DNA of 64,000 nt from Macrocybe gigantea (lineage: Eukaryota; Basidiomycota; Agaricomycetes; Agaricales; Callistosporiaceae). This document shows, one piece after another, positions 2,063-32,279 of the stretch (within the stretch, counting starts at the first letter, position 1; every line of letters starts with the position of its first letter). The stretch is from contig SJRY01000050.1 of assembly GCA_011319805.1 (NCBI GenBank), positions 248,001 through 312,000 of the forward strand. Direction: 5' to 3'. The notes beneath the pieces are model-generated. The model saw only the letters and a program-made list of their open reading frames with translations, ran no database searches and was not told the origin of the DNA. The translations under genes and the position numbers were made by a program.

Positions 2063-2264
2063 GCAGGAGGGTTGGAAAACTGGAGATGTGATGTCCTAGA
2101 GCGAGGTTTTCATACAATCTGGGCATCCGAGCCAAGCAAATTTTGTCCAAAAAGAGAAGTTTCGTTGGATTTCTGATCATGCAGCGACCGTGACAGACAT
2201 TGACACTTAAAGAAGCCGAGCGGCGAGAACTGATGGGAATGGACGTGGAGTAGAAAGGCAAGTT

Positions 2265-2682
2265 CACTGCTGCGGCTGGTAGCGGGAACCGTGGAAAAAA
2301 CCAATTAAGTTACATGTCTACTTTTTATTCGGGTTTTTCCACAAGAGCAACCCTAGAAAAATAAAACATTGTTTTAGGGGATAAATGTAGGAGAAATAAA
2401 AATTGTCATGAAAATTTTTCCCAAGAAAAAATATGATATTGATTAATAGGTCAGGATATGCAATAAATGTTTGACAGTAAAAGTAGATATAATGCCGGTT
2501 TCTACCTTAGCTTATTCTAGAAGAAAAATGAGTAAATAAATAGATCCTTTTTCTGCGCGAAAAATAGAATAAAAAAAATGACTACATTATCTGCGCGATA
2601 CAGCTCAAGATAAAGAAATCGCATCACTCATCGCGTCGATGGAAGGCGCGATGAGCATCTCCCAAGCGAGTCGATGAGCGTT
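2265..2682 (+). repeat. Left terminal inverted repeat of the giant CACTA element
   Basis: An AT-rich stretch whose sequence matches the reverse complement of 31748-32167 along its length. Identity is exact over the first 16 bases and imperfect inside. Shared blocks include GGAACCGT, TTACATGTCT, GCGCGATACAGC and TCATCGCGTCGA. The inner 100 bp carries repeated CGATGAGC/GCTCATCG and CTGCGCGA words, the kind of subterminal repeat that CACTA transposases bind. Confidence 0.85.
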
Positions 2683-3004
2683 GCTTGCCTTGCCATGCAA
2701 GCGGCTGAGGGTCTCTGTCAGCGCTTCCTTTCTAAATGCTATCGTGCAGCGCGCATGTGCATCAGTCGTCTATGCGCGCGCAGCTGGGGGCATATCAATA
2801 GGTAGACAGCTGTAGGAATAATTATACCGTCGGTAGGCGCCCCTTCCTAGCATGTGACTCTGCCAAGATGCGCGACGGTAGGGCATGCCAGTTTTGGAGA
2901 TAGTGACCATTTAAGTTAGTTTAATTCCCATCTTGGGTTGTCGGAAACGTAGACGCGCATGACTTGAACTCATTGCTGTGGCCGCTTTTCTGATTCCTGA
3001 TCCC
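2683..3004. other. No gene seen; inner flank of the left terminus
   Basis: Short GC-alternating words (GCGCGC, TGCATG) and no credible reading frame. It probably holds the promoter of the Cys-cluster gene that starts at 3005. Confidence 0.4.
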
Positions 3005-4294
3005 ATGTCATCTGCGCTCGAGCGTCGTTTCAAATCAGTTTTATGGAAATTTGATGAACACAATACCTCCGAGGGGAAGTCAAAAGCAGAGCTCGAAAGT
3101 ATAGGAAAAGCTCTGATTGAAATTTTAGTGCATCGTCTATTCTATTCTATTTCTTATTAGAAAGCGCGTCTGATGTATCATTTGATAGCATGAGCAAGAG
3201 GAAATGTCATACGAACGGTCTGAAGATGATGAAGTGCGTCTGAAAGAAGTTTTTGACACGTTTGACAACAATGGGGAGGATGATTGGTTGGAATGGGCTG
3301 GCGCCCTGATGCCGAAGCGGAACGCACTCGTGCAGGACTTGTACGGAGAGATCACGGCTGTCGAACAGGCATTGCTGAAGACCAGAGGAACGAAGATGCA
3401 GGGGCATGCATCGGGGCGACCGCGGGCGCATCCTTGGACAGCGATATCAGTCAAGAGGAAGCCAGTCCACATGTCTCAGCTGCAGACCAGGAAGGTCATT
3501 TTTCGACAGAGGATGAGATAGAAGGGACGAAGAATGATGAGGACGTTTCTCAGGATTCACCGGAACAAACCTCCAAGGTGATAAGGGTATTTATCATCAT
3601 CATAAGCCGTTTATTTATTATCTCATCTATCAGCGAACTCTTCATCCCCGGAAAAAATCAGGAAGCAAGAAGGATGAATGGCACGTTCTAACCAGTCATG
3701 ACAGGAGCAAAAAAAGACACAGGAAGGATGCCGCTGAAGATCTCGACTCTGATACCAACACAATGCGCGGTACTGTTCCAATCATGCTCCGCGGTCGGGA
3801 TGTGGAGTCGGTATCTCTCGATGGCGTTAATGGCTTCATTGTTTCTCCTTCACAAGCTGTGAGCCCAGTTTTCTTTTGGCCCTATGTTCTACATATTTCA
3901 GTATAGTGCACACGTTGCCAATCTTCCCGCAAAGCCCAAAATTGTTTCTTTGAAAATGGCAAGATTCGGTGCTCACCATGCCACGCAAAACATCACGTCT
4001 GCAAGTTCCCACCTGGCATGTCAGCTGAAGGCAATGCGAGCAGTGGTGCATCCACGAAGCGGCCTGCCGTGGCCATCAACCCACTATTCCGGACAAAAAA
4101 CAGCTCCCAATTGCTCCAGTTGCAAATGCATCGCTCAACACCCTGAATGCGCAGCTTCTGGGGCCCAGTCACAATTCTATTTTTGGCGAAGTATGATGGA
4201 GATGGCGGAGAGGGCTTGTCTTGAGGCGAAGAAAAGATATGATGAGGTCGCAGTGAAAATTGCAGGCAGTGAATACGACGAGTTGAATGAGTAG
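3005..4294 (+). CDS. Cys-cluster protein A, transposon cargo, frame broken twice
   Basis: Function unknown. The first exon starts at ATG 3005; an intron follows near 3130-3190. The second exon carries a Trp/Leu motif LEWAGALMP (about 3291-3318), then an acidic linker. After an intron ending TATAG at about 3906 comes a cysteine cluster, C-x2-C-x8-C-x8-C-x2-C-x6-C (3907-4002), rich in Lys/Arg/His and therefore a plausible zinc-binding or nucleic-acid-binding module. A short helical tail follows (MMEMAERACLEAKKRY). The same layout recurs at 5092-6303, so the two are paralogues inside one transposon. The frame breaks near 4091 and 4191; one added base at each restores it. This may be decay or homopolymer error. 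The Zn2Cys6-like reading is inference; the spacing does not fit the classic Gal4 type. Confidence 0.55.
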
Positions 4295-5091
4295 GAAGGA
4301 GGCACCAGATCTCGAACCGCAATGACTAAACGATATCATTTGACTTATTTACACGATAAGTAAATACCATATATTTTGATGAAGTTGAAGAGGGGATGAA
4401 CAACGGGAAAACGCACGAATGGATAGTGGCAGCCTAGCTTGAAGCATCCGGTGGTTATGTCCTGTCCAATGTCCTGGCGCCTGTCGCCGAACACGCTCAT
4501 GTCAGCATCAGCGAGCCAGTCTTCCTGACCATTCCAAAGGGATCGACATTTTAAATGAAGTCCATAAATGCACCCCGGGTACGACAATGATGAACATGCC
4601 TTCAAGGAAGAAAGGGCGAGTCGAACTTTGCCTAGCTGCACGAGATTGGGATCGAAGGAATTGGGATTAAAAATGTATGGTGACGTCATACCTCTTCTGC
4701 CTTTACGGGCAACGAGATGGAATTTGATCGGGATCGAAGGTTATGATCGCATCAAGTGCAATGGATGCGAGACATAGCCGCATGCTAAGATACAGCGGAT
4801 CACATGATCCTAGGATGCGTCGTTGACCGTGGCGTGGCTCGCTGCTTATTGAATTCTTCACCACGAAGTGTCAGTTCGTGAAGGACTTGCAAATAAGCAG
4901 TACACCATAGGGCGATTCTAGTCTGGGCTTTGGGGGTGCTGAATCTGGACAGCTCGGGTGTTTGGAACTGTGTTGAAACTGTGGGTGCAATTAACTTTTT
5001 TACGTGATGTGTGACAGAGTCACTCACCGTCTTTTCTTCATGTCCGCTTCGTCAGTTCTTACATGCCAACTCACAGAGCCATCTCAACGCA
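4295..5091. other. No gene recognised between the two Cys-cluster genes
   Basis: Several open frames of about 70-115 codons exist on both strands, but none has exon signals, a family motif or a sensible composition. The last 100 bp likely carry the promoter of the downstream paralogue. Confidence 0.4.
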
Positions 5092-6303
5092 ATGGAAGGC
5101 GCTCAAGAACTCAATTCAAAGCAGAAAAAGACCATGCAACGCACAGTTGGAGCTCTGGAGGACTTGATGATGTCGCTCCCCGAAGGCATCGCTGACGATG
5201 AAGACTATGTTATCTGGGGAAAAAAATTCTTGGAACATCTGGTGAGCCTTGAATTAATCACAAGCAGGGGAAGCTGAACTCTCTCAAGGACACCTATGAC
5301 AGTGTAATGGAGACGCGAGACGCAAGGGTCCTTGAAATGCTGAACGAGGCTCGGGCAACCTTCGACAGAAAGGGATCCGAGTCCTGGCTTGAATGGGGCG
5401 AAGAACTCATGCCGAATATTGTCAAGCTACGTTCGCAGAGAAAGGAAACGCAAGAAGAGTCTGCCGTGAATCAGAAGCATGACAAGAACAAACAGCAGGC
5501 GAAGCCGAAGGTCCGTCAGTACAAGAAGGTCGCGAATGGATCGAAGGCCGATGCCGAACAAGACACGAAACCTACGGATAAACGATAGGTAGAGTTGCAG
5601 CCCATTTAGAAAGCAAAAATTAATGTGAATTAGATGAATCTAATCGACTTTGACGATGATATTGAAATGACTGAGCCAAAGGAAGCACGCAAAATGTGTG
5701 TCTCGCCAGACACATTTGGCATGGATCAATCAGACGAAGAGCCGGCAAGAAAGAAAACGAAAATATTGCCGGAAATAGTTATACCTGCGAAGCGCGGATG
5801 CAGGGCAAGGTCGAAGGCTGAGACTCTACTTTTAACAGGAACTGATCGAGTCCGTTCATTCTCTTCTGTGGTGAAATGCTCTGACATTGCCATCAGTGTA
5901 CTTGTTGCCAGAAATTGAAGGGCCGCGAATGTCTGCAAGTACACCGTTGGGACAGCAAGATGCGATGCATGCAAATCCCGTCACCAAAGGTGCTCCTTGG
6001 CTCCACCCGGGAAGAAGGACGATGATGACAATGAACAGCCGAAGAAGATGGTCACTCGAGCGGCTACAAATGCCCGGAAACTCAAGGATGCCATAGCCCA
6101 AGAGCCGGCTCCCTCGCACGATGATTATGAATCTGTCTATTCGCACATTCGCTCAGAGCTTTTTCGCATGAAAAGCAGGTTGCGTGTAGAGCATGCCATC
6201 GTCAATGTGCTGCAGCAGCAGTTATGGGAACTAGATGACATGGGTTATGACGATCAGGAGGAGGACATGATTGAAGCTGTGATCAGATATTTTGTGGGAT
6301 TCA
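5092..6303 (+). CDS. Cys-cluster protein B, paralogue of A, probably broken
   Basis: Function unknown. Start chosen at ATG 5092 (MEGAQELNSK). An intron of about 50 nt ends near 5269, and the second exon has LEWGEELMP (about 5388-5414), matching LEWAGALMP in protein A. A Lys-rich linker and a second acidic segment (MNLIDFDDDIEM) lead to the cysteine cluster at 5897-5993 (CTCC...C...CDACKSRHQRC). A helical C-terminus follows (ELFRMKSRLRVEHAIVNVLQ). The cluster is split between two frames near TGTCTGC at about 5925, and the exon joining before it is unclear. The end is uncertain; the open frame runs on to 6419. Gene order and shared motifs support a tandem duplication within the element. Confidence 0.5.
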
Positions 6304-6541
6304 ACAGCCATATTCGCATATATAATTTCGTCTTGTACAAATCAGCGTCAATTAAAAATCAATTCATATGTCCGAGCAACGTAGTTTCGTTCATTCCCTG
6401 TCTACGACGCCCATCATGAGCATTAGTCTCAGTAGAGAAGAGGCATATAATGGGAGTCTCTGTCTATTTATTTTTAGTACACATGGAAAACAGCATCGCA
6501 TAGTTTCACGCAAGTACTGCATTCATATTCAATCACCATAT

Positions 6542-9500
6542 TTAAATCCTGATCAAGTTGAGATCCAGAATAACCATATTGTTCTGTGCACCCAGAGTCG
6601 TGCGCATCATATGGCTCAAGTTCGCATACCAAGCACAGTCGTAAAAGTTTTTGGGCATTTCTGCCAGAGGTCGCTTTGTGCTTACGGCGCCTTGAAGATG
6701 AATTCGCGCCCGCCGTGAGGGACCTGGCTTCCTATTTCTGTATTTGCTCTTGTCCTTGCGATGTTCGTCGATAAATTGGACGATTGTATTCACTGTGTCA
6801 GAGTGCCATTCTCTGCGCTTTATAATGAGTTGGTCAGTCTCGCCGTCGCTTTCATCAGAGCTCATTCCATCAAGCCCCAGAGTCTCCACAACTTTCGCGA
6901 GCTGTCCCCATCCTGACTTCTTCATAGGGGATGCAATGTCGTACGTTTCTAAACAGGTTTGAAGCCTGTCATCATATTTCTGAAGTCCTGCAGTCAATAG
7001 ATTTTACTTGCATGAACAGAAATACAAATACCTTTCCACGGCATGTGTCACGCCTGCTAGCTTTCAGCTTGGTCGCCACCACTCTAGTAGCACGCTGGTC
7101 GGCCTGTTCCAGAGTTTCTTGCCCATGGGGAGAGCGACACTTTAATTTCTTATTTAGTGTCGCGATGCGGCCGATAAAACCAGCCGAGAGTTGTTCATCC
7201 GAAGCTGTGAGGTCCGGGTGTTTGTCACGTAAGGCATCTACGAATATCTGAGACAAGTGAATATTCCATGGTGAGCTTGGCACGTCCCAGTAGATTCGCA
7301 GTGGGGTAAGCATTGGGTCCCGCCAGCCATTATGTCCTGGATTTTCATCGCCTTCGTTGTCACTCCCGTGGTCCCCATTGCCGATTTCACCATTCGTGAA
7401 AGCAGTCGCTTCAGCCGTGCTGACCAGCATAGTAGACGTCAAGACCAGAATATCATTATCGTACTTGATTTTAAGAAGTTCGTTCATATAAGCGTGAAGT
7501 AATTTCTACAAGCAGAGCGCTTTAGTCAAATCCACAAGAATGTAGTGATCGACAACTCACAACTTCCCCATTAGGTAGCATGCCTTTCTTTTATGCTTGG
7601 AGGGTGACTTGGAAAGCACATTCTTAAGACACGACAGACGTCTTGGCGGTGAAGATGATTCCTCCCGGAGCTCTCGTATTTCATGCCGTGTGGCTCTGAG
7701 TTCGCGAATGATCCGTTCAGAAAATGAGATATCGTTGGTGTCACCACTGCTTTCATTGTCAGACATAATTTCGGCAGCCAAGACATCTGACTCCAACTTG
7801 CTGTCAGATGAGGGATCAATCGGCGTATCATGATGCCGACTGCGAACCCGATGTGTTGACGCATTGGTTATAGCGGGTGGCCGCAGCGTAATTGAATGCT
7901 GAGGATCAGCTACAACGTCCCTATTAACGACGCATTGTATCTTGGAGAGTGGGAACGCACTGGCTCGCCGAGTGCTAGAAGTTTCTGCAACTCGAGGGAT
8001 ATCGTTATCTGATGTACTGACAATGGGTGCTGTATTCGTTGGACCGAAAGCAACGTGCCGCATCTCCCTCAACCGTTGCAACGTCGTGAGGGATGGCGTT
8101 GTCCCACGCTGAATGTATTTATCAGTATGACGCGAAAAATAATACGCAATTTGAGCGCACAGCAATGGAGGAATGGCGTAAATTATCGCCAACAGATTGC
8201 GCCTGCCCATTTATTAAATATGTTAAGATGAGGAAAGACAGCACTGACGACGTCGGTAGCGTTCCTTGTACCGTTTGCTTCATGTGATCCACTTCCTGAA
8301 TCAGTATCCATGTCGTCGGACGTCAATGCAGAAGAAGGATTGACTGCATTGTTGGCGTTGGAACGGACGGCCTGAGTGGCTTCATCTACAGCATCTTTAA
8401 TTGCGCTTGTGTGCAACGATATAACACGGTGTAAGAGATTTCGGCTCTCAGCTGTGAGACTCAGAAAAGATGCTTCGAAATTCGAAGTGCGTCGGTCGTT
8501 TGACTGAAGTGTAGATAATAGTGCATGGTGCAATTGGGTCTATCAAAGATAGGTATGATCAGGAATGGCTTCCGTGAAAAAATCATTCACTCACCATTTC
8601 AGCTTCAAGTTCAGAGGATTGCAACTTCATATCATCAATCTCCTTGAGCATTCATTCCTGCTTCTGAAGATATTCTTGGCCTTGCCGATCGCAACTATTT
8701 GTTGCGTCAAGGAGGTCCTTCCGCGCGCTTTGCAACACAGCCGACAAATTGGACTTCGCCTCCTTGACCACCTCCTTATCGGCCTCGCACTTCTGCAGCT
8801 TCTCTCACGTAAGACCGAGATCCCTGGCCAGCTTTCCGGTAAGGATCTGCTTGGTGTCGACTCGCTCTCGTAGAATACATAAATCTTCAGAATGGCGATC
8901 TTTAATTTGTTGAATCTTTGACGTGTGGTCCTACAGAGTGCAGGAAGTCAACTGTGAGAGCTTGTGTGACAAAACATTCCAAGCATACCTTCTCCAGCTC
9001 ATTTATGATTGTCGCATTTTGGCTCTCGAGTTTCGATATCTTGGAAGTAAATTCGTCGGCCATAGCCCGCAGCTCATCAGTGAGTGCAACACTCTTGGAC
9101 TGCTCTTTGTCAGCACGCACATTGGCTTTGTCGTGAGCCTCGCCTACATCGCCGATGGTAGATTTCAGGGCCTTGACCTCGGCTTCAAAATGTTCAACTT
9201 CATTTCCAGAGTCGGCCAGATCCTTCCGCAATTCAGAGATATTGAGTTTAAGCGCATCTAGTTCTCCCCGAGAAGCGTCAAGGTCCCGTCCATAGTCATC
9301 GCGAGCCTCCTGTGCCTGTAAAAGTGCAGTTCGCAATGACTGGATCTCGTCATGTGCACTTTGGAGATGCTGGTTCGATTCCTCGCGGGTGCCGCGTAGC
9401 TCTGATATGGTCGAATTGAGAACTCGGATGTCATTTTCTGCATGTTCAAGATCTTCAGCCAGCCTATCATTTGGATGAAGCAAGATGTCCCTCTCGACTG

Positions 9501-10765
9501 CCTGTATCTCCTCAAACTCCTTCAATTTAGTTCGTAGCTCTTCTGTGACCTGTGTGGAGTCCTCGAGTGTGCCTTGCAAGGACGCAATTTCTTCCCGTGC
9601 AGTCAACGTGTCGCGCTCAGCGCTGTCCGCATGCATACATTGCATGGTTATAGTTTCACTAGCGTCTGTCAAGCGATCTTCTAGCGCTTTCACTTGCCGA
9701 TGTAAATCGACCTCCGTCGATACATAGTCAGCCTTCTCAGCTTCAGATGATCGTAAAGCCATGACCATCTCGTCTCGTTCTTTAGATAGCTGTGGGTTGG
9801 TTATTAATGCTAATGTCACAAGCCAAGAAGCTTGAAACCATACCATCGCCATGGCTTCTACGAGGTTAGCTCGCTCCTCGTTTCGTTTTGTGAGCAAGGC
9901 ATTTGCAGTCACCAATTGCTCAGATTGCTGCAAGATCAACGCATTCGCGGCTTTCAAATCTTCCTTTGTCCTTTCAATCTGGTACACCGCAATGATTAAT
10001 CGCTCATAGCAACCGTGAAAATGTCTTCCTCACCGTGGCCTCCATATCTGCAATCTTTTTTTGACTTTCTACAATTCGAATCTTCGAAACATACACGGTC
10101 TAATAACCATCCGTGAAAACACTGATGTTTCGAAACAGGAAAAAAAAACTTACACCTTTGTCATTCCATCTAAGATTTTGTCCATCAGCAGTAGATCCAT
10201 CTTCTGCAAGTATATTGTCGTGCTTATTTTCATCATCATCAAATGTTTCTTTGGCGCGGCGCTTCTAATTCACGTCATGAAGGTTATTATAATTCACATG
10301 TAGAAAAAAAAAAGTAAAGCTCACTCCGTATGAATGTGTAGGAACGACAGCTGCTGGCTCTCTAAAGATCTGCATGATCCAGGGGTTATGGCCTTGGAGA
10401 TAATATGGTAACCGTAAATCAGTGCAGCCCCGGGCATTCAAGTTGACGTGTTCTGCAGGAAGTGGGGTAGTCACGCACGGCGTCGTCACGTCCTCGTCAC
10501 CTTCATCGCATGTGTGATATTGGGCACTGCTTTGATCCAAATCCATGTTCGACGAAGGCATCTCACTTTCAATGTTGGACGGTGAAGAAGTGTCGATGTC
10601 GCTAGCGGATCCCGCGCTACTGCCACCCTCAAACTCCGTGAATGACGTGGAAGTGCTTCCTGGAATATCAGATGGTGATGGGGTAGGAGTTTCACCACCG
10701 CGTCCATCACTACTTTCCTGTTCCAAATCCGTGGATGAAGCGAAAGACTGAAATTGCCCGGGCAT
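6542..10765 (-). pseudogene. Long coiled-coil protein, transposon cargo, with stops and frame breaks
   Basis: Role unknown; the protein would be over 1,000 residues. It starts at ATG 10765 with a Ser/Pro/Glu-rich acidic region. After small exons (about 10250 to 10030) it becomes a long heptad-rich coiled coil (about 9990 to 8600, for example DLKAANALILQQSEQL and ELRKDLADSGNEVEHFEAEV). It continues through a Ser/Asp-rich region (8533-7560) to a C-terminal domain (7487-6542: MNELLKIKYDNDILVL, LRIYWDVPSSPW, WYANLSHMM). Two in-frame TGA codons lie in the coiled coil, near 8814 and 8669. The frame shifts near 7583, and a splice junction near 7031 also needs one base. Such coiled coils could scaffold a complex, but nothing here proves that. 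The single-gene model is my inference from consistent exon phases. Confidence 0.55.
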
Positions 10766-11592
10766 CAGGTGTCGTGAGCGTCACAGTTGCGCCTTATTGG
10801 TGATAAATTGAGCAAAATGTTTAAATGTTTAAATCGACTAGGCTGAACAAACTGGTGGAGTTGAAGCACTTTCCGTGCGTTCGGATTTCTTGCATTTTGG
10901 CATATTGTGACGACTAGCAGGCAGAGCGGGACTGCTCTAGCTATTGTGGGATGGATTTGCTTGCTCCGGGCATATGAGTATCCTACAGAACACTTCAACT
11001 GACATGGACCAGATCAGGAGACCTGATATACGAGAGGGACAAAGTAGTGTGAAGGCGTAGCACAGGTGAGCAGATGTAGAAATTGCTAAACCGCCTTTCA
11101 TGAATACTTTGCTTTGAAGGCGCGCAATATGGTGCGCGCAGTCGCAGATCTGGACTACATTATGCTATGGTGCTTTGTGAGACAAAGCAACATACCAGTG
11201 AGGGTTTGCGGATCTGCAGGACAGCCTGTCATTCTTTCAAAGGACATGTGACAGACAGAAAGCAAGAAAGGCAGAGTTTCTTCCTCCGTCCGCTGTATCT
11301 GGCTGTCAGACAATGCAAATGTATTAACAGGTGGTCATGAAGTTGCCAGCAGCGAAGGAAAGGCGATCGCCTTTCTTATAGCCACCTGTGGCATGCGACG
11401 CGATGTCATGCACAAAGAGATGCTCGTGTCCCTGGCAGTCCATTGGGATGATACGCGACTTTCAAACAAAGAGCCTTTCATCGCCACGGAAGCTTATGGC
11501 AGCGGCCGATAAACCGACGACCTTATTTGTATCTGTCTACTCGTGAAATCACGCTCAACATCTTCACATTGAACCACCCAACTCGAAAGGAA
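10766..11592. other. Divergent intergenic region, no gene recognised
   Basis: Lies between the start of the coiled-coil gene (minus) and the RING gene (plus), so it holds both promoters. No motif was picked out with confidence. Confidence 0.4.
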
Positions 11593-12808
11593 ATGCCTAG
11601 GACAAATGTCAAGAAGAATTACACTTCGGAAGGGAGTTTGCATGAACTATGGAGGTAAGAATTAACAATTCTCCACAGTGATGGCGCAGTTGAACATGTT
11701 CTGATAAGGCGCCATGAGATTATGCTCTCAAGGGCATCAAGTGACAATGGACAGATGGTCCAAACTGTCGCATGCACAAGTGCCGAACTGGCTGGGTATG
11801 CTAGGCACGAAAAAGTAAGCAGCCTATACCTTGGTACACACAGGCTCAGAGGTAGCAGTTGCGCTCTTCCAACCTCACAACCTTGCAACTGAAGCGGGAA
11901 CATTCTAAAGTTCAGCGGGATTTGAATGATGTATGTATCATGCACGCCTTCTGACTCCACATCTGATTGTCCCACAGCGCCTTACCAGCGTGGAGGCAGA
12001 GGTCGCACTGTACAAGGCTGAAATTTCAGACCTGAAGGAACAACTGGAATCATACTCCTCAGTGAGTTATTGCATATAATGTGGTTTTTGAGTTGCCACA
12101 TGCCATGTCAGAGATGCAATAAGCTCATGAAGGAAACTGAAATGTTGTTCGAAATGAACAACGGCCTTGTCAAGGTATAATGATGGGCATCATTTCCGAC
12201 TTTTCCTATTGAAGGGAGCCAACTCCAGGACCGCAGCAACCTGGAGGAAGAAGTGGACAAACGTATCAGCGATTACGACGCCGTAATATCACTTCATGTC
12301 TTGTCGTCACTACCATTAAATGTCTTGTGATATAGGTTGTACATGACGCATCGCTTAAGCAGTTAGAATTTGACAAATTTCGAGACGAAGTGCAGCGGCA
12401 GCGACAGCGTCATGGCGAGGTACGATTCAGAGCTTTGCGTGAACCTCATTAAACTCATCGCCGAAAGTTCAGGCCTCTGAGCAGATGGAGCGTCTCCTGA
12501 TTTGCCCAATTTGTCAAGGACAACTGACAGATCCCGTCGCGTCAGTGACTAGCCATGTTCATTCAAGTGCTGAAAATGAATTCTCCCACAGGACGTTATG
12601 CGGCCACATATTCTGTAAAGCGTGCATAACACATTGGCTTCAGCCAAGTACGAGAGGGGGATGTGGGAAAGAGCGTTGCCCTAACTGCCATCGTAATGTG
12701 AGCAAAAGCAAGTCAAACCCGATTATCGAGATTATTGGCCTAGGCGATGTCATATCTTTGGCGGCATCACTTAATGATGCCATCAAATCGAATTCGAATG
12801 TTGCGTAG
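11593..12808 (+). CDS. Coiled-coil RING-finger protein (putative E3 ubiquitin ligase), transposon cargo
   Basis: Starts at ATG 11593 (MPRTNVKKNY). At least seven small exons joined by introns of about 25-65 nt give a coiled coil (for example RLTSVEAEVALYKAEISDL near 11978). The last exons encode a C3HC4 RING. CPIC (about 12506) and LCGHIFCKACI (about 12597) are brought together by an intron at 12540-12591. CPNC follows at about 12680, then a hydrophobic C-terminal helix and a stop at 12806-12808. The spacing C-x2-C-x11-C-x-H-x2-C-x2-C-x17-C-x2-C fits a zinc-coordinating RING. No internal stop was found, so unlike its neighbours this gene looks intact. It probably transfers ubiquitin to an unknown target; the RING call is firm, the ligase role is inferred. 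Confidence 0.75.
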
Positions 12809-12855
12809 AGGATTGATATCAATTCTGACATCTCAGCACTGTCCGTTACCTACCT

Positions 12856-13414
12856 ATGGCATTGAGAAACAGATGTACATGCAAAGCATACGACTGCTAC
12901 AGTATCGTGGATCGCAAAACTGGCGAATGAGGCCAATTGCTCAATGATCGCCAGTATCAAACACATCTTCGCAGAGAACGGCAAGAGGCACTGCTCAATA
13001 CGATCAATTCCTCGCATGCGCAGATTGTCGACTCGCTCACACAGAGTATGCAAAACATTTCACTAATGGATGCTACCCAGCCATTGCCAGCTGCGACATC
13101 AAAAAGAGGAACAATCGCGAATGATCAAGCGCTAATTTCCAACGAACTTTCTCGCCTTCAAAAGCGGACGGATCGCCTGCGAAGGCTGAGCGACACCGAA
13201 CTTACTTGCAATCATAAGGTGCTGAATACTACGTCAGCTATGGAGCGCATCGCCCATATCAGTGGACTGATGCACAAAGCGGACACCATTACACTCAAAT
13301 TGGACGCTCTTCGTGTTGGTGCGGTGCATGCAAAGCATAAGAGCAGCTGGAAGATGTTGCGGTCAGACTTGGATAAAATCAAGTGCCATCTTGCAGCAGC
13401 AGAGGGAATGTGGC
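12856..13414 (+). pseudogene. CACTA (Plavaka-type) transposase, N-terminal part, cut by hAT insertion
   Basis: ATG at 12856 (MALRNRCTCKAYDCYS) opens a short Cys motif of the type seen at the N-terminus of basidiomycete Plavaka-type transposases. A TGA interrupts the frame at about 12929, within KTGE-stop-GQLLNDRQ. The frame then runs through a helical region to EGMW at 13413, where the hAT element begins. Removing the hAT and one 8-bp duplication joins this frame directly, in phase, to the sequence after 20599. It is therefore the 5' part of the gene that continues at 20600-23841. Confidence 0.75.
13407..13414 (+). repeat. Left 8-bp target duplication of the nested hAT (AATGTGGC)
   Basis: Identical to 20592-20599 on the far side of the hAT element. 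An 8-bp duplication is the hallmark of hAT insertion. Confidence 0.93.
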
Positions 13415-13575
13415 TAGTGTTGCCGCGGCTCCAACTCGGAACCGACTAAGAACCGGAGCCGAGTTGGGGCCAAGCCGAAGCCGAGCCGGATCGGCAATAA
13501 CCGCTAACGTCGGCTCAGGGGAACCGAACAGCCGCGGCTCGTTTGCCAAGTCGGTTGGAGTCGACTACAGCCGCT
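13415..13575. repeat. Left terminal and subterminal repeat region of the hAT
   Basis: After the 17-bp terminal repeat come several copies of GAGCCG or CGGCTC (for example GGAGCCGAG, AAGCCGAGCCGG, CGGCTCAGG, GCGGCTCG). The right end at about 20440-20591 is built the same way. Confidence 0.75.
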
Positions 13576-13712
13576 GAACTGATGGAGCTGGGCATTCCAG
13601 AGAAGAAAAAGTAAAAATGCACATTAGATTACGTGTATACTTCCAAGAATTATGGTAATACTAAATGTCGTGGTATCGTAGTCCTAGAAATTAGATGTAG
13701 TATTGACAGCTA

Positions 13713-20591: not shown

Positions 20592-20599
20592 AATGTGGC
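20592..20599 (+). repeat. Right 8-bp target duplication of the nested hAT (AATGTGGC)
   Basis: Perfect copy of 13407-13414. Confidence 0.93.
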
Positions 20600-23500
20600 G
20601 TATTATCTGGTGACGATATGAGCTTGAACGGGAGGATATTCAAAAGACTGCAGCATTGACGTATGCATCAGGTACTGTGATGAACGAGAAATTGTCGATG
20701 TTCTACTGACGAACTGGTTGATGCAAGATCATCATTTTGACTCTATCCTCAATGGAGTAGAGAGACTGGTTCAGGTCATCGCTTTCATGGTCGTGGTGGC
20801 CCATGTCCTGTTCAAATTACCACGGCGTGGCTGTGCGTGGCTTTTCGCCATAGTTGCGTACATTGTTGAAATCATTGCGGAAATCTGTCCTCCCTTCCAA
20901 CGGCCGCTAGGCAGATTTCGAAATCTTCTGCCAAAGGATGTCGAAATGGCAACAGCACAGTTTCAGTTGGACACAAAAGCTACAATCTACGCGGCTTGTC
21001 CTGCATGCCATTCACTCTATGGTGCCAATTCCGATGGTGCCTACCCACGTCGTTGCTCCGCGAAGAAATATGGGTTTCAATGCAAGGCGAAGTTGCTTTG
21101 AAAAACAGAGCCCGGAGGGCGAAAAACACGTGTGCCAATAAAGCCATTTGTTTCTTTCAGTTTTAAGGACTGGCTTGCCGGCATGCTTTCGCAGACTGGC
21201 TATGAAGTCATCATGGATAGTGCATGGCACCACGTCGAATCCTCTTCGGCTGACATTTGCGACATATTCGAAGGTCGAAATATCAAGTCGTTCCTTGGAA
21301 AAGATGGCCTTCATTTCAGTGTTAGTGGTGGCGAAGACGCAGGTCGATATACCTTTACACTGAACTTTGATTTCTTTAACCCTGGCCGCAATATTGCAAA
21401 TGGGAAGAAGCAATCTATCGGCATACTATCGCTTACCTGTCTTAATCTTCCCATCGAATCACGCCATAAGCCAGAAAATGTCTTCCTCACTGCGATCATT
21501 CCTGGCCCGACCGAGCCGCCACTGGAAGCAATTAATGCATACATGAAGCCTCTCATCGACGAAATGTTGGAGTTCTGGGACGGCATATGGTTTACTCGTA
21601 CAGGCCTTTGACCATTTGGCCGCTTGATTTTGTGTGCTATTGTCGCTATTGTATGTGATTTACCAGCAGCGCGTAAAATCTCCGGGAGCGCCTCATATGC
21701 CCACAGGCTGTACTGTAATTTGTGCACTTGCCACAAGCCTGATAAACCAGGTGCGGTAGACTTCGGGTTCAACAATTATGACATAAAAGCCTGGACGCTG
21801 CGAACGAGAAAGGCCATTGCAGATGCCGCGGAAGCACATCGCATCGCACCCACATCAGGCGCTGCACAGCATTTATTTGACACGAATGGCATTCGTTGGT
21901 CAGAGCTATTCCGCCTGCCGTACTACAATCCAATGACCTTCATTGTCGTTGATCCAATGCACAACTTATTTTTAGACCTTATAAAGGAACACTTTCAGGG
22001 TATACTTGGTATGCGCAAGAAGCGCGACGGTGATGCCCTTGATCGAGCACCACGAAATCTCATTCTCAGTATTGCACCCACTCCCGAAAACCCACTTCCA
22101 GGCACAGATAAAGGCCAACGTGATGCGCAAAAATTAATCAACTACCTTCAGGAGCCAGTCGATGTTTTACCCAATGACAAATCATCCAAGGCGATCAAAA
22201 CCAGATGGGCGAACAACATCAGTAAGCCGGCCTTACTGTTTGTCGTTAATGCTCTACACTGCGGACGCGAAGGCGAGAATCAATCCTCCTGTACCAAATT
22301 TGAGCTAGCTGAGCGCTTGTGGGAATGGGTGAGTTGTTATCGGTCCTTTGTGTGCTAACTTAACCACTGGCCTTAGAAAGTGAAAGAAATTCGTCAGTTA
22401 GTGGATGTTCCGGAGTCTCTGTATGATGGAATCAAGTACGGCAATATTCTCACTGATAGTGACCTCAAAGAGTTTCAACGCGATGTGAACCGTCTTGTCA
22501 AACCTTCATGGGTGACTTCGGTTCCACCCATGTTTATGGCCTACGGCCCAAAATTGAAGGCTGATCAGTGGTGAACAGTCACTCAGATATATGCTCCAAT
22601 TACCCTAGTCTGCATCTGGTGGGCCAATGATGATGGAACCTTGGATTGCGCCGCTCTCCTTCGACTCGCTCTGCTCAATCTGACTGTTGCCCTTCTTGGC
22701 TCTGTATCGTTCGCGACGTTGCGAATTACATCTTGGCTGCATGCGCAAAGTGCTCATGGATACATGCTCAGATATCGCAAAAGTCTCCAGGAGCTATTCC
22801 CATCATATAAATGCCATGTCAACCATCATATGGTGCTTTATCTTCCTACATTCCTGCTCCTACATGGACCAGTGCATGGTTGGTGGGCTTATACTCAGGA
22901 GCGCATGATAGGAATCATGCAAAGAATATCTACGAATTTCAAGCCAGGTATGATGGTTTACATTATTGCTGCCTTTCTTTCATAGTAGTGTTTGAAATGC
23001 GTTGATGCGAAAAATAGGCGAATATGAAGAGACAATTGGGAGATCTTGGCATCGCACCTCCAATTTCCGCGCGATCTTTCTGAAGCCATCATGTCCCGAA
23101 GTTATTCAAAAATGCAGCCCACTGTTTGAAAAATTCCTGGGAGCACCTGTTCGTGATTCTCTCGACACGGATACTCTTTTCCCAGTCAATACCCATGACA
23201 GCAATGTCAGTGAAGACAGGAATTTGCAATCATCCGAGAAGGTTATACAAATCTCGCCCGATATTAGAGCGGCATTGTCAAAGCGCATGGGTCAGACTCA
23301 AGTGCCATATCGCACGAAGACTTTGGCTGCAATCTCGCATCATGGAATTTTATACAACACAAAAACCCGTCATGAAGGAAACAGCTGCGTTTTTCTTAAA
23401 GGATCGCCTATCCCTTGCATCATCGAACAGATTCTCATTATTTCCGAAAAATCGGGTGAGGAAGCAACCTGGGTGATTGTGCGCGAACATCTTCCTGCAA

Positions 23501-23841
23501 AGCTTCATTTCGACCCATACAAAGCATATCCTGTGCTCCGGGCGCAGCTCTGGAGTGCCGAGTTTGAGCCACAGTTGAAGGCAATGCCTCTGCAGGATGT
23601 CGATTGCCATTATGCAAAATGTCCCATGAACTGGGAAAGTCGTGATTATGTGGTCATTATTTCACTGTCGAAAGTGGGTATTGAATTCCGTTATGCCAAT
23701 CGCTCTGATGCAGTATTAGGTTTTCGATGCGACGCGAATTGCCAAGGAGGGAGATGGTTCACCGTTTGTCACCCCCGGCATGATGAGCTTTATGCCAGAC
23801 ATGTAAATCTCGCTTTGTCAGGTTCAGGCAGAGTAGTCTGA
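20600..23841 (+). pseudogene. CACTA (Plavaka-type) transposase, catalytic and C-terminal part, decayed
   Basis: Continues the frame that stops at 13414. Recognisable transposase segments follow: VVVAHVLFKLPRRGCAWLF (about 20790), a CPACHSLY motif (about 21000), VCDLPAARKISG (about 21650), HRLYCNLCTCHKPD (about 21705), and an Asp-containing block FIVVDPMHNLFLDLIKEHF (about 21940) typical of CACTA/Plavaka enzymes. The late block LHGPVHGWWAYTQERMIGI (about 22865) follows, and the gene ends at 23841. Premature TGA codons lie near 20620, 21099, 21609 and 22572, and one base is needed near 20671. With the hAT inside it, this copy cannot make transposase; movement would need another copy in the genome. 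Confidence 0.82.
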
Positions 23842-24556
23842 TATGGCCATAATGATAAAAACAATTGATTAATAGTCACGACAGTGTGGGATGCCGGGGC
23901 TGTGTTACTGAATCCATCAGGAGGCTAGCAGATGGAGAGACTACTGAGGTCCAGATACACTACCATGCTCCTTCGATCGTTTTATGTGAGCGCAATCTAG
24001 GTTTTAGTGTGGCTATTTTAAGAATGATTTCGATAACTACATGGATGTTATTCATATCTATCACGTCGCTCGTGCCTACATGTGACAATGTGCACGATGA
24101 AAGCTCTACGGCAAGAGGCACTGCAGGCAAGACACGTGTATGTGTCTTCATGAGCACCAGGTACTCCTCGTGTGATTCATCGAGAGTGGTGAAGGGGTTG
24201 TGGCATGATTCTATTTCCTCAGCCATGCATGTCACAAGTAAAATATGCGCGATAGCGATGCGCCAGCAAAGCATTAATGCGATCACTAGGCTCATTGAGA
24301 GCGATCTCATTTACAACAGTAGTCAGACATGAGCTCAGTGAGTTCCATTGCTACATGATATAACTCAAGGTCCAAGTGCACGATTGCAAATGATCAACTG
24401 TAATGGACGATATATGCTCAGCATTGCGACAGAGGTTTACATTCTGTGTTTGGATTCTGGAAGGAATGTAGCTACATTTGAAGCTGTCCGCGAACTCAAA
24501 ATTTATTTCCAAGTCGTTTGCTTGCTATGAACAAAGATCTACAGGAACTCCTCACA
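23842..24556. other. No gene recognised
   Basis: Tail-to-tail gap between the transposase and the minus-strand WPVR gene. A minus-strand open frame at 23960-24310 starts with a hydrophobic stretch, but it has no recognisable family or exon signals. Confidence 0.4.
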
Positions 24557-25508
24557 TCAGTCTTCTGACTCCAAACTCGACTCCCTCAGAGCAGCCTCGA
24601 TACGTATGTTCCTCTGTCGAGTATTTTGCCGATGCGTCGCTTCTGATCTATACTTGAGGACCAGCTTCAGGGCGCTTCGAACAGGCCAGCAATCATCGTA
24701 GTGCCGTAATGTAGGCCATCTGGTCTCTTCCATCATCTATTAGTCCGGCTATCAGTATTATGGACAATTTCAGTCACACACTCAGGTACCTTTTCACATA
24801 GTCGACCAATTGCACGCTTGTCTTGACTTCGAAACGACATTGTCATATTAAGGACTTTCTTCGCTTCTGATCGTATTTCATTCTGATGCTCTCAGTTAGG
24901 ATATCGCGCAAACACCAGCATGGCTGACATACCATCAAACAGTCTACATCTTCTTTAGACCACTTGTATGTATCGACGAGGATGGTCTCCAGGCCAAACC
25001 CACCTGACCCAGGGCGACCAGGCTCCCCAGGTGGTTTCGGAATCTTTTTAAGCTCTGTATCTCCGTGTGATGGGCGGGCCATGCCAAGCGGTGGCCTAGC
25101 GTTTCCGTTCCCATCCTCACAACTCGGATGGTGATTGCTTGGTCCCCCATTATCAAGTGGCTCGGGTCGTCCGAGAATAGTAGAGTCTGTGAACTTGATG
25201 CATGACGTCGTAATCGGCATAGGCGGGTCGGCTGATGGCATAAACTCTATGCGCGACGTTAGTAGAGGATAGTGTCGCTGAATGTAATATGCCATATTCT
25301 TTGGCACACTCTTGTCACGTTTCATCTCTTTATATGTCCTCAAAACACGTCGCATAATCGCATGCGACCGTAGCATAAACAATGAAAACCATAAATGCAA
25401 ATGTTGGCCCACCTGGCACAAACTGATAAAGGAGGCTGGCAGGTGTATAAGTTGCACCTTTGTCTCGGCATATAAGCTACGACATCGAGCAGGTGAAAGG
25501 GTCTGCAT
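24557..25508 (-). CDS. Orphan WPVR-motif protein, transposon cargo
   Basis: Function unknown. The main exon (to about 24933) carries RRVLRTYKEMKRDKSVPKN, a Pro/Gly-rich linker (PKPPGEPGRPGSGGFGLET) and DTYKWSKEDVD. A middle exon (EIRSEAKKVLNMTMSFR, about 24880) follows. The last exon (about 24735 to 24557) contains DDCWPVRSALKLVLKYRSE and a basic, Gln/Arg-rich tail. Exons join by GT..AG introns without stops. I recall similar WPVR-x(3)-LK-x(2)-LKYRS endings among hypothetical proteins of mushroom genomes, but cannot name a domain. The true start may be an internal Met near 25370, since the first 45 residues are not distinctive. It is divergent from the WD40 gene at 25738. Confidence 0.55.
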
Positions 25509-25737
25509 AACAGGATAGGAGCATCATGAAAGAAAGGAAGAAAGGCGTTGCCACTTGTCCGACTTGCTTGATGTATCTTTCAGTCTCAAACCGACATTCT
25601 TTATCAAGAGGCGCATAAAAGCCCGGCATTTATGGAATGCTCTTGGCACAAATTACTGCACTCAACACATATCGTTGTTTAACGGGTATGTCACCATTCA
25701 AGGAATCTTCCTTCGACTAAAACGCTATTCGCGCTAG

Positions 25738-27724
25738 ATGGCTGCATACACATTTCGAGGTGAATTGAAAGGTTCGCAAGGTGGTGTAAATGCATTATTA
25801 TTTTTCAAAGATGGGTGATCATTGCTCAGTGGTGGTATGTTAAATGTTGTGCACACATCGGATGCACTGATATCATGACAAACTAGGTGATGACGGTACC
25901 TCTGGGTCTGGGACCTTGAGGATCTGAAGTGTATACAGCATTTGTGGAGCAGAGAATGGGGTCAAATCGCAATGCTGAGCTGGATCGAGACCGGGCGCTC
26001 TTTTTTGTGCATAGGATCCGTGAGAGGGGTCATTACTATAGCACCGGTCAAGACGGACCTGAATGTGAGTTGAACAGCATGTCGCCTCTATGATCGACGT
26101 GTTAATCACATGTCGGCAGCCGATTTCGACAGATTATAAGCACTATCATGCCTTTGACTTCAACGACATTGTCGAATCTGTAGCCTTTGACGATGCAAAC
26201 CATCGCCTTGCTGTTGCTAGTCATGCAGGTATTCTGAAGCTGTTCGAAGTGGACCCCAGAGGCAGTACCAATCACATCAGTACTTTCTATATTTTTCTAA
26301 CATTGCAAATACAGGTTCGCTCTCTGCGCTCTGGACAAGTAATTTAGATTGCGCTATACCATGCAGAGTGCTTTTCTATGGTCCTGAAAATGAGAATATT
26401 GTCATGCATTCCTTGGAAAATGGAGAAATGTTAGTTCGCATAATCAAACTGTTCCCTGTGCCTCTTTTATGCGTTCGCAGCACATGCAAGGATGCTATTA
26501 CCTTGAATGACCTCTGGAAGCAGTCAGTTATAGGGGGGATGTAAGTCGAACTATTTCATGCTCTGCCCTTATTCACAGTTACGCCTAGAGGAGACGCGAC
26601 TCTATCTCCTGATGGAAGCAAACTCGCTGTTCACAATCTGAAGGCCGGACATTTCGACATCTACCACTTCCTAACCATAAAGTTAATGATGTCAGTCAAA
26701 CTCGGCGACACACGGCGTTTCACCTGTCAATGTGTTTTCGCTGAAGACATGGTGGTGCTTGTTTGCGGAAGCACTCTCAATAAGGTCCATGTTGTTGACC
26801 TTGCAACAGGAGTGTTGCAGCAAACGCTAGAGGCAACGGACGGTAAACCCTCTACACCCTTTCATCTACTATCTAATCAAATACTGTGTGCTAGATGGAG
26901 GGAGGATGCACTGCGTCGCAGCAATGGCGATTCCGGGTGTAAAGCATATAATTGTGGGCGCCTCAACATCAGAAAGACCGTCTCTTTACTTATGGGAGAA
27001 AAAGGTGACATCTATTTCTTTATCTGCGATGTACGTGCTAACCAGAATTCATCTCAGTCATGCTCTGAAGTCGCATTGCGCGATAGAGGTCAAAATCGCG
27101 AAGACAAAGCCCTTAAAGTGGGGGACCATATCCATGCGCAGTGGATATTTAATGCCATTGTTATGTTTATTGTGATCCTGGCGAGTTACTCAAATTGGGC
27201 GCCATTATTTTGGAAGGTAGCGTAAAATTTATATCTTGATTCAAGTTGCTTACACGACCATCCAGGTTTTCGGACATCCACCGGTTGTGCCTTCGTCCAG
27301 GGATACTGAGGCGTTGTTCTCTTCGAATCGCGATGCGCCAGATATCGAGTACATGCAAGATACACAGCGTCTTATCGCATTGGCATCTGAATCGCAGGAA
27401 GACCTGCCTCGCAGGTACCACAGGGCAATTGCCCTCATCAGAGCGAGGGAGAGTGCCGATGATTTTGACATACGCGACACTGATACATTCACATGGACGA
27501 ATCAAAAATGGCTAGGCAACCACCATGCGACTTCCCGGCATGATGGTCAACCCTCAAACGACGGTGTAATTTCGTCTGGCTCCAGAGCAGCTCCAAGCAA
27601 TGAGGGCGCTCACAGTCATGAATTCACTTCCATTTCCGAGGTACCAGCCCTATATGAAACAGGATCGAGTCGGGTGGAAGAGGTTTTCAAAGTCGATACT
27701 ACTGCATCCATTGCTGCCAGTTGA
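25738..27724 (+). CDS. WD40 beta-propeller protein, transposon cargo, one stop and one frame break
   Basis: Starts at ATG 25738 (MAAYTFRGELKGSQGGVNAL). Exons carry WD40-like blades: FKDG-stop-SLLSGG then DDGT; VWDLEDLKCIQHLW (about 25905); NDIVESVAFDDANHRLAVAS (about 26165); DATLSPDGSKLAVHNL (about 26590); VVLVCGSTLNKVHVVDLATG (about 26750); and HIIVGASTSERPSLYLWEKK (about 26950). A hydrophobic segment near 27160-27200 (VMFIVILASYSNWAPLFW) and an acidic tail follow, ending at 27724. A TGA stands where an Arg is common (about 25812), and one base is missing near 25904. WD40 proteins are protein-binding platforms; a scaffold role with the other cargo proteins is possible but unproven. Confidence 0.65.
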
Positions 27725-30700
27725 AGTATTACACCCTTCATCGTTGCATGATAGTCTTACTTGTCCATTTACTGTTTCGAGTGTAACTATCACCACAAGA
27801 CAATACCGTACATTTGCAATGATCAGCCCATGTTCTTAGTTATATCAGTAGTGTAGCAAGGGCACTCGCCTTGCAACATGTCTAGCCATCTGTGCCAACC
27901 ATCTGTTGAGGCTATGCGATTGTGAGTGCATGGATGTGACCAATGGCGACCAGGCATTCTGAATACCCCCCTCAGAAGCATTTTGCACTAAGCTATGCAT
28001 AATACAGGAGACAAGTGAAAATGTGAACGATACGATGCGATCGCAGGGATGGGTCAAGGTGACAGCACGTGTGAGTGTCAGGGGACATCCTGTTTTCTGC
28101 ACTCAAGTCCCCTCGACAACGCGATGCGAGCGCGCACAACGTGAAGCGCACGAGCCGATGCCCCTCAGTTAGTCGCTCGCATGCGATTTCGTGTTGCGTG
28201 CGTGTCGCATCACTCCGCATCCAAACAAGCTCATTTACGCGCCTCGCTCCCACCTCATGTCCTCCACGTGTCCATCTCGTATATTATAATATATAGCTAG
28301 ATAGCACCCTAGCACACTAGAGGGGATCCTTAGAGTGTTCTCTTAGGTTTCCCCTCTAGGTAAGTCGGTGTACATACTAGGCTACCAATACATGCTTAGG
28401 TTTCCCCTCTAGGTTCACCCCTCGCACGTATCACGCATCACGTCCAGGTCATCCTCAGCGGTTGCCCTAACAGAGTTCATGTATTTAGGGACGACGTTGT
28501 ACAGCTAAAGTGGGATTGGGCGCCTTGCTGTACTATTGACAAATGTCTGCATGCAGCATAACATAATAATCAATAGGCATCACAAGTGTAACAAAGTGAT
28601 TGGACATGTGATCTCACATGTGACAGTGCGTGATTTGGTGATGCGAATGGGGAGTATCCACCAAGCAGAGCTAATCGTCTGCTTGTGTGTGCCTTCTGTA
28701 TGGCAACCTCGCGCATATCGCATATCGGCCATGCCGCTACCTTCAAAAACTGTGCATGCAAGCGATTTGTCAGCCCAGAATTTTTCTAGCGTAGTATCCG
28801 TTACACAATGTTCATCATATTGTATATATCGAAATGCTTGTGTATACATTGGGGTTCTGCTCTTCCATTAAGCATGCGACGTATGTACCTCATATTCGAG
28901 TGGCCTTTACTTCATTGTCTCAATTGTCATGTGTTTCTAGTCAGAAGATGTGCCGAAGATTCAGTTTCTGATATGCATCCGCTGACACGCTATTCGAGAC
29001 GCGTGCTCATGATAAGGGGCCAGCTACATGTCACGTGCGCTATGGGAAAGCATCGAGCATCGAGTCGCTGCTAAACTGGCTTCAGATACATCTGTGCTTC
29101 CCGCATTTGGTGCGGACCGCATCAGACGCAGGAGCAGCACTGCTTGAACGAAAGTCGCGATGCGCTCTGCCATTTCATTTCTGGTCAATCTGGCTTCAGA
29201 GGAATCGTGCGGGTAGGGTCAGTCTTCGCACTGTCATAGATAGGTGCAGCACAAGGTTAGATTTCAATAGTCCACGTCTCTGTCAAGCACTAACAATGAT
29301 CCTGTGTTTCGTTTTCCGTATTATTTCTCTTGCACGATTGAAGTGATGAATAAAGGTCAGCAGCCAGAAGATGAGCGTCCACTAGAGCGCAGTTCGGAGC
29401 AGTAGGAGAGTGCTCCTTGACCACATAATCGTCTAAGAATAATGTCCACCATGTGTCTTCATTTCAGCTTTGAACCTATCCCGGAATGGGGCGTACGATG
29501 CGAAGCACGCATTCGCCGTTATGACCTTGCACTTGCCTACAGACCATGTCTTATTGTGAGTCAAAGTTATGTCTCTAGCATTTTCGATTATGTCTTGGAC
29601 CGCTTATACCATCCATAGACCTTGGCACCACATTCATCTCAACCGGCTCGTCATAGTGTTCAGTGAGGAGCCAAGACGCCGTCAGCGCAACTCGTGCATG
29701 CAAGCACGTGGATCAAGGGACTGACGATGTCATCGCCGTTCCTGTCTATCTTGAAGTAGTGACTAACATCTCTAGCAGGATTGTGAATTTCGCCTGAGAG
29801 AGGACTGGCGAGTGGAGTATGATGATGACAGTTCCATATGTGTCGCCGAACATTCGAGCTGGTGCACATCATGGACTTCGAGTTAAGTTCGCTTATCTGA
29901 AGCACGAAGCACGTTCCTTTTCTTTCAATGAATGCTGATTTATCTTTTTCCGACACCCAGATTACGACTGAATCCTCATCATTGACTGGCAGGGCAACAC
30001 GCGGAAAAGCTACCGCACGAGCCTGCACCACATGGAAATAGCACCAGCTCAAGCGTCGCGTCGAGCAGGTCGCACTTCAACTTGGAGCGCTCGTCCTTAT
30101 TACTTTATGTGCCGTGATCGGTGCCTGTGCCACTGCAATGCATGGAAGTGTCGGCAGACTACTCTTAGCCCTTCCACTGCTGCCATCAACTGATCACAAC
30201 CACTCATATAGGCCTCGAAGTATGGACAGCGCGCTGCTTGTACGCATGACTGACAACTCTGGTCACAGCAGATAGGCATCTGAGTGGTTCATCTACTAGG
30301 CTTCGCTATTCTGTGTGTGTTGCGACACTGGGAAAGCAGAGGCCCATGCCGCGATGCGCATCAGGCTCTGGACGTATGTGTATTGCATGTTGCTGTCCTT
30401 TTCACCATCGCAATGACGAAATCGACACGCTCTTTGTCTTATTCTTGGTCATCAGCTCCGCCTATGCCCATGGTTATAGATACAGCCATGACTGTGTATA
30501 GGACGATGCGTATGAATATGCCTATGGCTACCGGAGCTCCGAAAACGATGCTGGACCCGCCGCTGACCATCCCAGTGCATTTGCCCCAACTGCCGCGCCT
30601 GCTGCATAGTGGCGATGATGATGTATGCTGCGGTGTCGCATCCAGTGAGATCCTGTTCGTCCACAAACATAGCTTCGTTTCTATTCCCCGACGTTCCCTC

Positions 30701-31747
30701 CTCAGAGTTGTAGTGACATTCAAGTCGGGCTCACCATCCCCGCTGGAATGCGATAATAATAACTTTCATATTCCCCAACAATGCCTATCGCGCGCCAGTA
30801 CACACCTGTTTGGCGGTTTGATGCTCTTGTTATTGCGAACGCATCCACCAATGGATCGCACGCCATTCCAGTGCGTGCGATGAACTTCCGAAGCGCGGTT
30901 AATTGGAATTGACACGCGCGACATTTTATGGCACAGTCATTCTCACTATTGCTGGTTCAGTCCTGCGGTGCGCATCATCCTTATTGTCCCATTTCAAAGT
31001 ACATTGCACATTTCATATACATTCATAGTGCGCCCTTTACGTCCCCACTTTTTTCCTCCGTTAAAAAAGCACTCGGTGTCCTGTCCCGCAGGATAAACAT
31101 GAAGTGTCACCCACGCATGACCGTTGACGAATCCTCGCACAGTCCAGTGCCATGCGTTCCCTCTAGACCAGTGCAGCGCGCCCCTTAAGGTAGGCGATTT
31201 ATCTTGCAATTGATATTATAAAAAGTGAAAGTCACTTACATGACCACCCAGTCGACGCACTCCAAATTGAAATGAATGGAAATCGCTTCCCCGTGCGTCT
31301 CTAGCGCTTCAATTACCCTGTCGTGCGTTTCATCGCGTTGGCTTCCAGGGATTTCGTCGAAGTAGAAAATTTGCATTGAGAGCGCATTGTGAGTTTGAGC
31401 GTGTCTTTTGTGGTTTGCAGGATGTGACGATGGACGATGGACGATGACTCGCAATCTGACCACCCACACAGGCAGCAGAAACCAGTTCACAAGGAGGCGC
31501 GCGGCGGTCGTTTCCTCTCGTTTTACTACCTGGCCTCATCACGGCACGATGACACCGAGGGTGCACTACCAACCCCTCCACAGGCCGGTGCTGCCTTGTC
31601 GCCACTCTGCTCTAGCATAGGCTCACTCCCGAGCACGTCTCCGCCCATCGCAGCCCCAACCCCAGGCTCTTTGCGCCACATGTCTTCGCCTTCTCACCGA
31701 CTATTATGCGCGCACTACTAAATCAAGGATGTTCAGAGCGCTGGCGA
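27725..31747. other. Four kilobases of the giant element with no recognisable gene
   Basis: Open frames of up to about 200 codons exist (for example 30284-30883 plus, 29660-30052 minus), but none shows a family motif or coherent exon phases. The stretch 30430-30680 reads as a hydrophobic, Ala/Pro-rich region in more than one frame and may be a dead gene. Short repeats at 28342-28413 and GC-rich words around 28030-28210 and 31500-31700 stand out. Confidence 0.4.
28342..28413 (+). repeat. 19-bp direct repeat pair
   Basis: CTTAGGTTTCCCCTCTAGG occurs at 28342-28360 and again at 28395-28413. The partly complementary CTAGAGGGGATCC precedes it at 28317. Purpose unknown; it may be part of a small inserted element. 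Confidence 0.7.
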
Positions 31748-32167
31748 ATGCGCAGTCATCACCTCGCTGGGTAGGCGCTCATCAGGCGATGCTTCGACGC
31801 GATGAGCGACGCGATTGGTATATTCTGCGCTGTATCGCGCGGATAAATTATTCATTTATTTAGTTGATTTTTCGCATGCAAAAACAGTATATTTCTATAT
31901 TCATTTTTCACAGGAATAAGGCTGAGATAGAACTGTGCAGTATATGTTATTTTTAAAATGAAATGTTTATTACACATCTCTACCCATGTATAAATATTAC
32001 ATTTTTCATGCAGAAAAATTTGTGGATAGGTATTGTTTTCTTTGTATTTTTCCACTGGATCAATATATCATTTGCTTTAGATTGCTCCTATTGAAAATTT
32101 TAAAAAAAAAGAAGACATGTAATTTAATTAGTTTTTATAACGGTTCCAGTGACCAGCCGCAGCAGTG
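31748..32167 (-). repeat. Right terminal inverted repeat of the giant CACTA element
   Basis: Mirror copy of the left end. Reading the minus strand inward from 32167 gives CACTGCTGCGGCTGGT, then GGAACCGT, TTACATGTCT, and after an AT-rich middle GCGCGATACAGCG and TCATCGCGTCGA. It stops 113 bp short of the ATG of the gene at 32280. Alignment with the left end was done by eye, so the inner limit is approximate. Confidence 0.85.
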
Positions 32168-32279
32168 GTTGGATCCATCGGAGTGTTGTCACATTTGGCG
32201 GACATAGCGCAGCCAAACAAACATCATCACGGTGTGCTACCGACAACGCCGCCTCAGCCATTCTTCATGTCCTTCATCG

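Follow-up and report, generated by a model that had tools for sequence, protein, structure and literature searches.

The question raised by this locus is what kind of mobile DNA fills roughly 30 kb of the window (the whole 64,000-nucleotide stretch analysed, positions 248001–312000 of contig C50), and whether it represents a single giant transposon. The answer reached here, in which we place high confidence, is that the window contains a 22,725-bp CACTA/EnSpm DNA transposon, an older copy decayed at CpG sites and later hit by a 7,170-bp hAT element.

The sequence CACTGCTGCGGCTGGT starts at position 2265 and an exact inverted copy finishes at 32167, such that the terminal 16 bases are identical and the end-to-end interval is 29,903 bp. 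GTT can be read directly on both outer sides (2262–2264 and 32168–32170). The terminal inverted repeats (2265–2677 on the plus strand; 31756–32167 on the minus strand, finishing CAGTG) match each other at 71% identity over ∼412 bp (E 3.8e-43), far beyond chance. An earlier note on this DNA had described 16 identical terminal bases with CACTG, GTT on either side, and about 420 bp of imperfect inverted repeat; direct reading bears out the first two, and the third is a fair figure for the length computed here. Inverted repeats with a CAC start (CACTA or CACTG), a 3-bp target duplication and a tnp2-type transposase (Transposase_21) are features of CACTA/EnSpm elements. All three were found, namely CACTGCTGCGGCTGGT at both termini, equal triplets at every insertion for which both flanks are available, three in all (GTT for C50, AGA for C177/C317, TAA for C265/C193), and a Transposase_21 match (PF02992, E 1.3e-10) that exceeds the curated cut-off. 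Elements of this superfamily also have short motifs, repeated near both ends, that serve as binding sites of the TNPA type. Candidates for such motifs here are GATGAGCG, which occurs twice in each end and is absent from 13,988 bp of interior sequence, and GAAAAAT, which occurs four to five times in each end, both having been picked after looking.

The Transposase_21 match lies in a reading frame at 20628–22358 (plus strand), which contains two TGA stops in the window copy. The domain is also matched in four other copies, with the corresponding 576-aa frame open in two of them (C22 and C139), interrupted by two stops in a third (C255) and split in the fourth (C254). Named relatives of the transposase are from Mycena and Gymnopilus. 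For CACTA/EnSpm transposases, DDE-type catalytic residues accompanied by C(2)C and H(3-4)H motifs have been described (PMC12730594), and conserved D and C-x2-C columns are seen in the tnp2 alignment. A candidate H-x3-H followed by E can be picked out by eye in the next frame, where the alignment is uninformative. The downstream transposase frames (22575–23841, plus strand) give a weak DUF4218 match (PF13960, E 5.5e-04) that falls below the cut-off.

Could this instead belong to Plavaka or elsewhere in the CMCT group, and not to CACTA/EnSpm proper? Plavaka is a related transposase group in mushrooms, with 2- or 3-bp duplications like those of the element here, and the transposases of fungal EnSpm and Plavaka are related (PMC12730594); a weak PF18759 match (E 0.11) is present in the same protein. 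However, the Transposase_21 match is far better, and Plavaka ends are TGT..ACA or CATCA..TGATG (PMC12730594), whereas those of the element here are CACTG..CAGTG with a 3-bp duplication. These data make membership in Plavaka or its allies improbable and favor CACTA/EnSpm.

Nested within the CACTA element, at 13415–20584 (plus strand), is a second transposon of 7,170 bp with termini TAGTGTTGCC/GGCAACACTA. Its assignment to hAT follows from the short inverted TAGTGTTGCC ends, two copies of the 8-bp sequence AATGTGGC read at the insertion junctions (13407–13414 and 20585–20592), and a hAT transposase dimerisation domain (19925–20314, plus strand; PF05699, E 8.8e-13). Subtracting the hAT element and one copy of its duplication (13415–20592, 7,178 bp) from 29,903 bp leaves 22,725 bp of the CACTA element's own sequence (2265–13414 plus 20593–32167). 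Because the reading frame from 12931 to 13414 (plus strand) looks, on visual comparison, like the N-terminus of tnp2 relatives, and is hence the probable N-terminal exon of the transposase gene, the hAT element probably splits that gene. Further full-length hAT copies are found in the assembly, ten among the matches listed at 99–100% identity and two at 96%. Reading frames at 13713–16088 (minus strand) of the hAT are KOW/Spt5-like (PF00467 KOW, E 2.3e-07; Spt5-NGN, E 0.023, below the cut-off), and the same gene, a possible host capture, is present in ten other full-length, near-identical hAT copies. A 74% match at C40:479154–481678 covers this KOW/Spt5-like part.

The earlier note took the whole 30 kb to have moved as a unit, and in this respect it does not hold. 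Two observations lend the idea some support. The outer GTT duplication encloses the hAT as well, and an LTR-like insert common to two other copies (C121 and C255, see below) could mean that composite copies move. On the other hand, four other copies (C22, C139, C254 and C255) extend across element position 11,150, where the hAT sits, and none contains it; the hAT is also far less decayed than the CACTA sequence around it. The window hAT differs from a sister copy on C322 by 18 substitutions in 7,169 aligned bases, compared to 162 private substitutions in the left 8,980 bp of the C50 CACTA copy, at similar CpG densities (69 and 68 per kb). These data speak against the 30 kb as a single moved unit, making entry of the full 29.9 kb, hAT included, highly improbable, and they indicate that the hAT arrived after most of the CACTA decay. 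The decay probably took place at the present site, not before a later move. Of the 162 private substitutions, 159 are C>T or G>A, 150 of these falling at CpG; the right 3,850 bp has 69, including 63 CpG transitions. Base loss in the window copy is, in other words, almost exclusively C-to-T at CpG, the pattern that methylation decay or a RIP-like process would produce. More generally, the locus illustrates how one element nested in another can make a transposon look about a third larger than it really is.

For other copies of the 22,725-bp CACTA element, we turned to the assembly (41.2 Mb, 333 contigs). The left end occurs six times at 99–100% identity, with outer triplets GTT (C50), AGT (C22), AAA (C142), TAA (C265), AGA (C177) and ATC (C121). 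The right end likewise occurs six times at 99–100%, with outer triplets GTT (C50), TAT (C255), TAT (C254), AGA (C317), GTT (C139) and TAA (C193); additional matches comprise a 95% relic on C314 and a 90% partial on C3. With C254 and C255 counted as one site, based on their common flank, and relics omitted, there are eight insertion sites (C50, C22, C142, C177/C317, C265/C193, C121, C139 and C254/C255). The window copy is the only one assembled end to end, the remainder stopping at contig ends. The ends thus recur with different 3-bp flanks, and their co-occurrence at the right spacing on one contig is seen only in the window.

The flanks of all eight sites were then used to look for uninterrupted versions in the same assembly, and such versions were found for six, two of which have both flanks known. 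On C107, the left flank of C177 and the right flank of C317 are joined with a single AGA; on C285, the left flank of C265 and the right flank of C193 are joined with a single TAA. From these joined flanks we infer that C177/C317 and C265/C193 each represent both ends of one insertion. For the other four, one flank is followed by the uninterrupted version up to the CACTG end, where the two diverge: C208 tracks the left flank of C22, C264 the left flank of C142 (a run of A allowing a few bases of slack), C111 the right flank of C139, and C60 the right flank of C254. C60 adds a third version to those on C254 and C255, which makes its allelism less sure. In this assembly, the flanks of the window's own C50 site matched only themselves, yielding no empty version, and no spanning empty version was found for C121, whose flank is partly in a repeat. 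The left-only sites (C22, C142, C121) do not share triplets with the right-only sites (C139, C254/C255), and no flank of another site is found on the far side of C208, C264, C111 or C60, so that the two sets do not pair. Heterozygosity of these insertions, in an assembly that combines portions of two haplotypes, is the most economical interpretation.

Collectively, the recurrent ends, the other 3-bp flanks, the two joined empty sites with a single triplet (at insertions other than the window's, for which the earlier note had predicted a single GTT), and the copies without the hAT support the original assignment of 2265–32167 (plus strand) to a CACTA/EnSpm element with a 3-bp duplication. That the repeats arose by segmental duplication with no transposition, an idea to which the truncation of most copies by contig ends lends some appeal, has a negligible chance of being correct, as similarity between copies stops at CACTG, flanks of different sites are unrelated (the C254/C255 pair excepted), and the joined single-triplet sites on C107 and C285 contradict it.

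Over ∼8,980 bp of the CACTA element, C22 and C142 show no differences, C177 is 0.15% from them, C121 0.7%, and C50 2.1%. Judged from sequence comparison, the near-identical copies and uninterrupted sites point to recent movement. Some copies carry inserts of their own. The LTR-like insert mentioned above lies at element position 9,951–9,955, with the same sequence and position in C121 and C255, and the outer triplets of these two copies are unequal (ATC versus TAT). Possible explanations are a mobile composite copy shared by two sites, recombination, and misassembly. The C139 copy has a 1.1-kb insert at element position 25,881–25,885. On C314, a region dense in the same LTR-like sequence as in C121 and C255 also contains fragments of an older element copy. 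Outside the element, in the right flank of the window (39029–40597), there is a Dicer-like gene, a 522-aa frame with a best relative 60% identical; named relatives are from Desarmillaria and Hypholoma. Since these, like the Mycena and Gymnopilus relatives of the transposase, are mushroom-forming fungi, an agaricomycete is the probable host.

Besides the transposase, the element contains three other genes. A coiled-coil reading frame of 375 aa (8902–10029, minus strand) occupies the same relative position in a second, diverged family described below, and its product has no relative at E 1e-3 among 7,999 candidates scored from a large protein set. A RING-finger reading frame (12443–12808, plus strand; PF00097, E 3.5e-08) has relatives in C56, C151 and C306. 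Propeller-like reading frames (26069–27225, plus strand) also have second-family relatives, and match PF23414 below the cut-off in the C255 copy (E 0.0032). Pfam scans of the frames of the C22 and C255 copies (all except the L030 minus strand) add only RING, a weak coiled coil and a weak beta-propeller; in the same scanned frames there is neither recognisable host cargo nor a tyrosine recombinase of the type that serves as the Starship captain.

Ends of the second family are ∼65–70% alike to those here, with the same first bases, and are found on C143, C151, C155, C95, C310, C56, C306 and others. C151, C306 and C56 share with the first family the order of the coiled-coil (reverse), RING, tnp2 and propeller-like genes, the start of the contig truncating the coiled-coil match on C56. 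Because this order recurs in a diverged family, the four look, on the strength of their arrangement, like genes of the element itself, and random host cargo can be set aside. Compared to C22, second-family tnp2 is 69–72% identical (dN/dS 0.05–0.07) and the coiled-coil protein 36–39% identical (dN/dS ∼0.3), these ratios being rough given nearly saturated synonymous sites. For C151 versus C306, which are close copies, dN/dS is high (0.71 for tnp2, 0.43 for the coiled coil), and hence there is little sign of present constraint in these copies. The C306 element, a complete one, extends from 177,716 to 213,870 (36,155 bp), and since its outer triplets differ (CTT versus TTG), it may be old, rearranged or enlarged. 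On C143, second-family end sequences lie ∼17 kb apart (443725 to about 461003) and there is no tnp2 match on the contig; this unit is possibly a non-autonomous derivative. In the C143 sequence examined, the far terminus of the element was not located.

How might the element move? Most likely, the tnp2-type transposase recognises the CACTG ends and excises the element. By analogy with the superfamily, it is expected to cleave at CACTG/CAGTG and to insert the element at a 3-bp staggered break, generating the 3-bp target duplication, and the joined empty sites agree with such staggered insertion. Cut-and-paste transposition by this tnp2 transposase, and recent activity of the element, would be in line with this scheme. 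The window copy would first have gathered C-to-T changes at CpG and then taken the hAT insertion, which probably landed in the first part of the transposase gene. Given the stops and the hAT in the probable transposase gene, we infer that the window copy is mobile only with the help of other copies. As guesses, the coiled-coil protein may have a TNPA-like binding or regulatory role and the RING protein may act in removal of a host factor.

A wider proposal, which we regard as plausible and advance tentatively, is that there exists in mushroom-forming fungi a giant CACTA lineage with a fixed four-gene core (orphan coiled-coil, RING, tnp2 and propeller-like) and families of 22.7 kb and up to 36 kb, which continues to move from nucleus to nucleus within one strain and whose extra genes serve transposition or escape from silencing. 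With readable empty versions and conserved extra genes, the system makes it possible to test why so large a CACTA element retains genes other than that for the transposase.

Among known systems, fungal EnSpm/CACTA elements (Kojima 2025, PMC12730594) have CAC..GTG ends, a 3-bp duplication and a tnp2-related transposase, all in common with the element here. A superfamily with the same ends and 3-bp duplications is therefore already known in fungi, and the element does not found a new one. The families of that study were selected for a TET/JBP gene, and none was recognised in the frames scanned here; conversely, the sections considered here make no mention of coiled-coil, RING or propeller-like genes. 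Large CACTA elements have been reported from other kingdoms, including those of the red alga Chondrus (16–20 kb, 4–5 ORFs; PMC6431247) and one of 20.5 kb in soybean (PMC2613891). These belong to the same superfamily and are near 20 kb, with several frames in Chondrus. No fungal CACTA element >20 kb is named in the titles or abstract openings of the literature searched, which is not to claim that none is in print. The new features are the conserved four-gene core and, on the evidence of this literature, the large size for a fungus. The element exceeds the 20-kb threshold that one review sets for large elements (PMC6431247), and it does so as a member of a cut-and-paste class with transposase frames open in some copies.

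The earlier note likened the element to Starships in scale and placed it in a different superfamily. Both are indeed large mobile units of fungi, and the likeness is confined to size. Starships are recognised by their captain, a tyrosine-recombinase gene (PMC13066641), in contrast to the tnp2-type transposase here, where the frames scanned contain no recognisable host cargo; the tnp2 transposase, and scanned frames free of a tyrosine recombinase, exclude membership. Should the wider proposal prove true, Starships would not be the only path by which fungi come to carry giant mobile DNA; CACTA elements would be a second one, in which the extra genes are not passive cargo.
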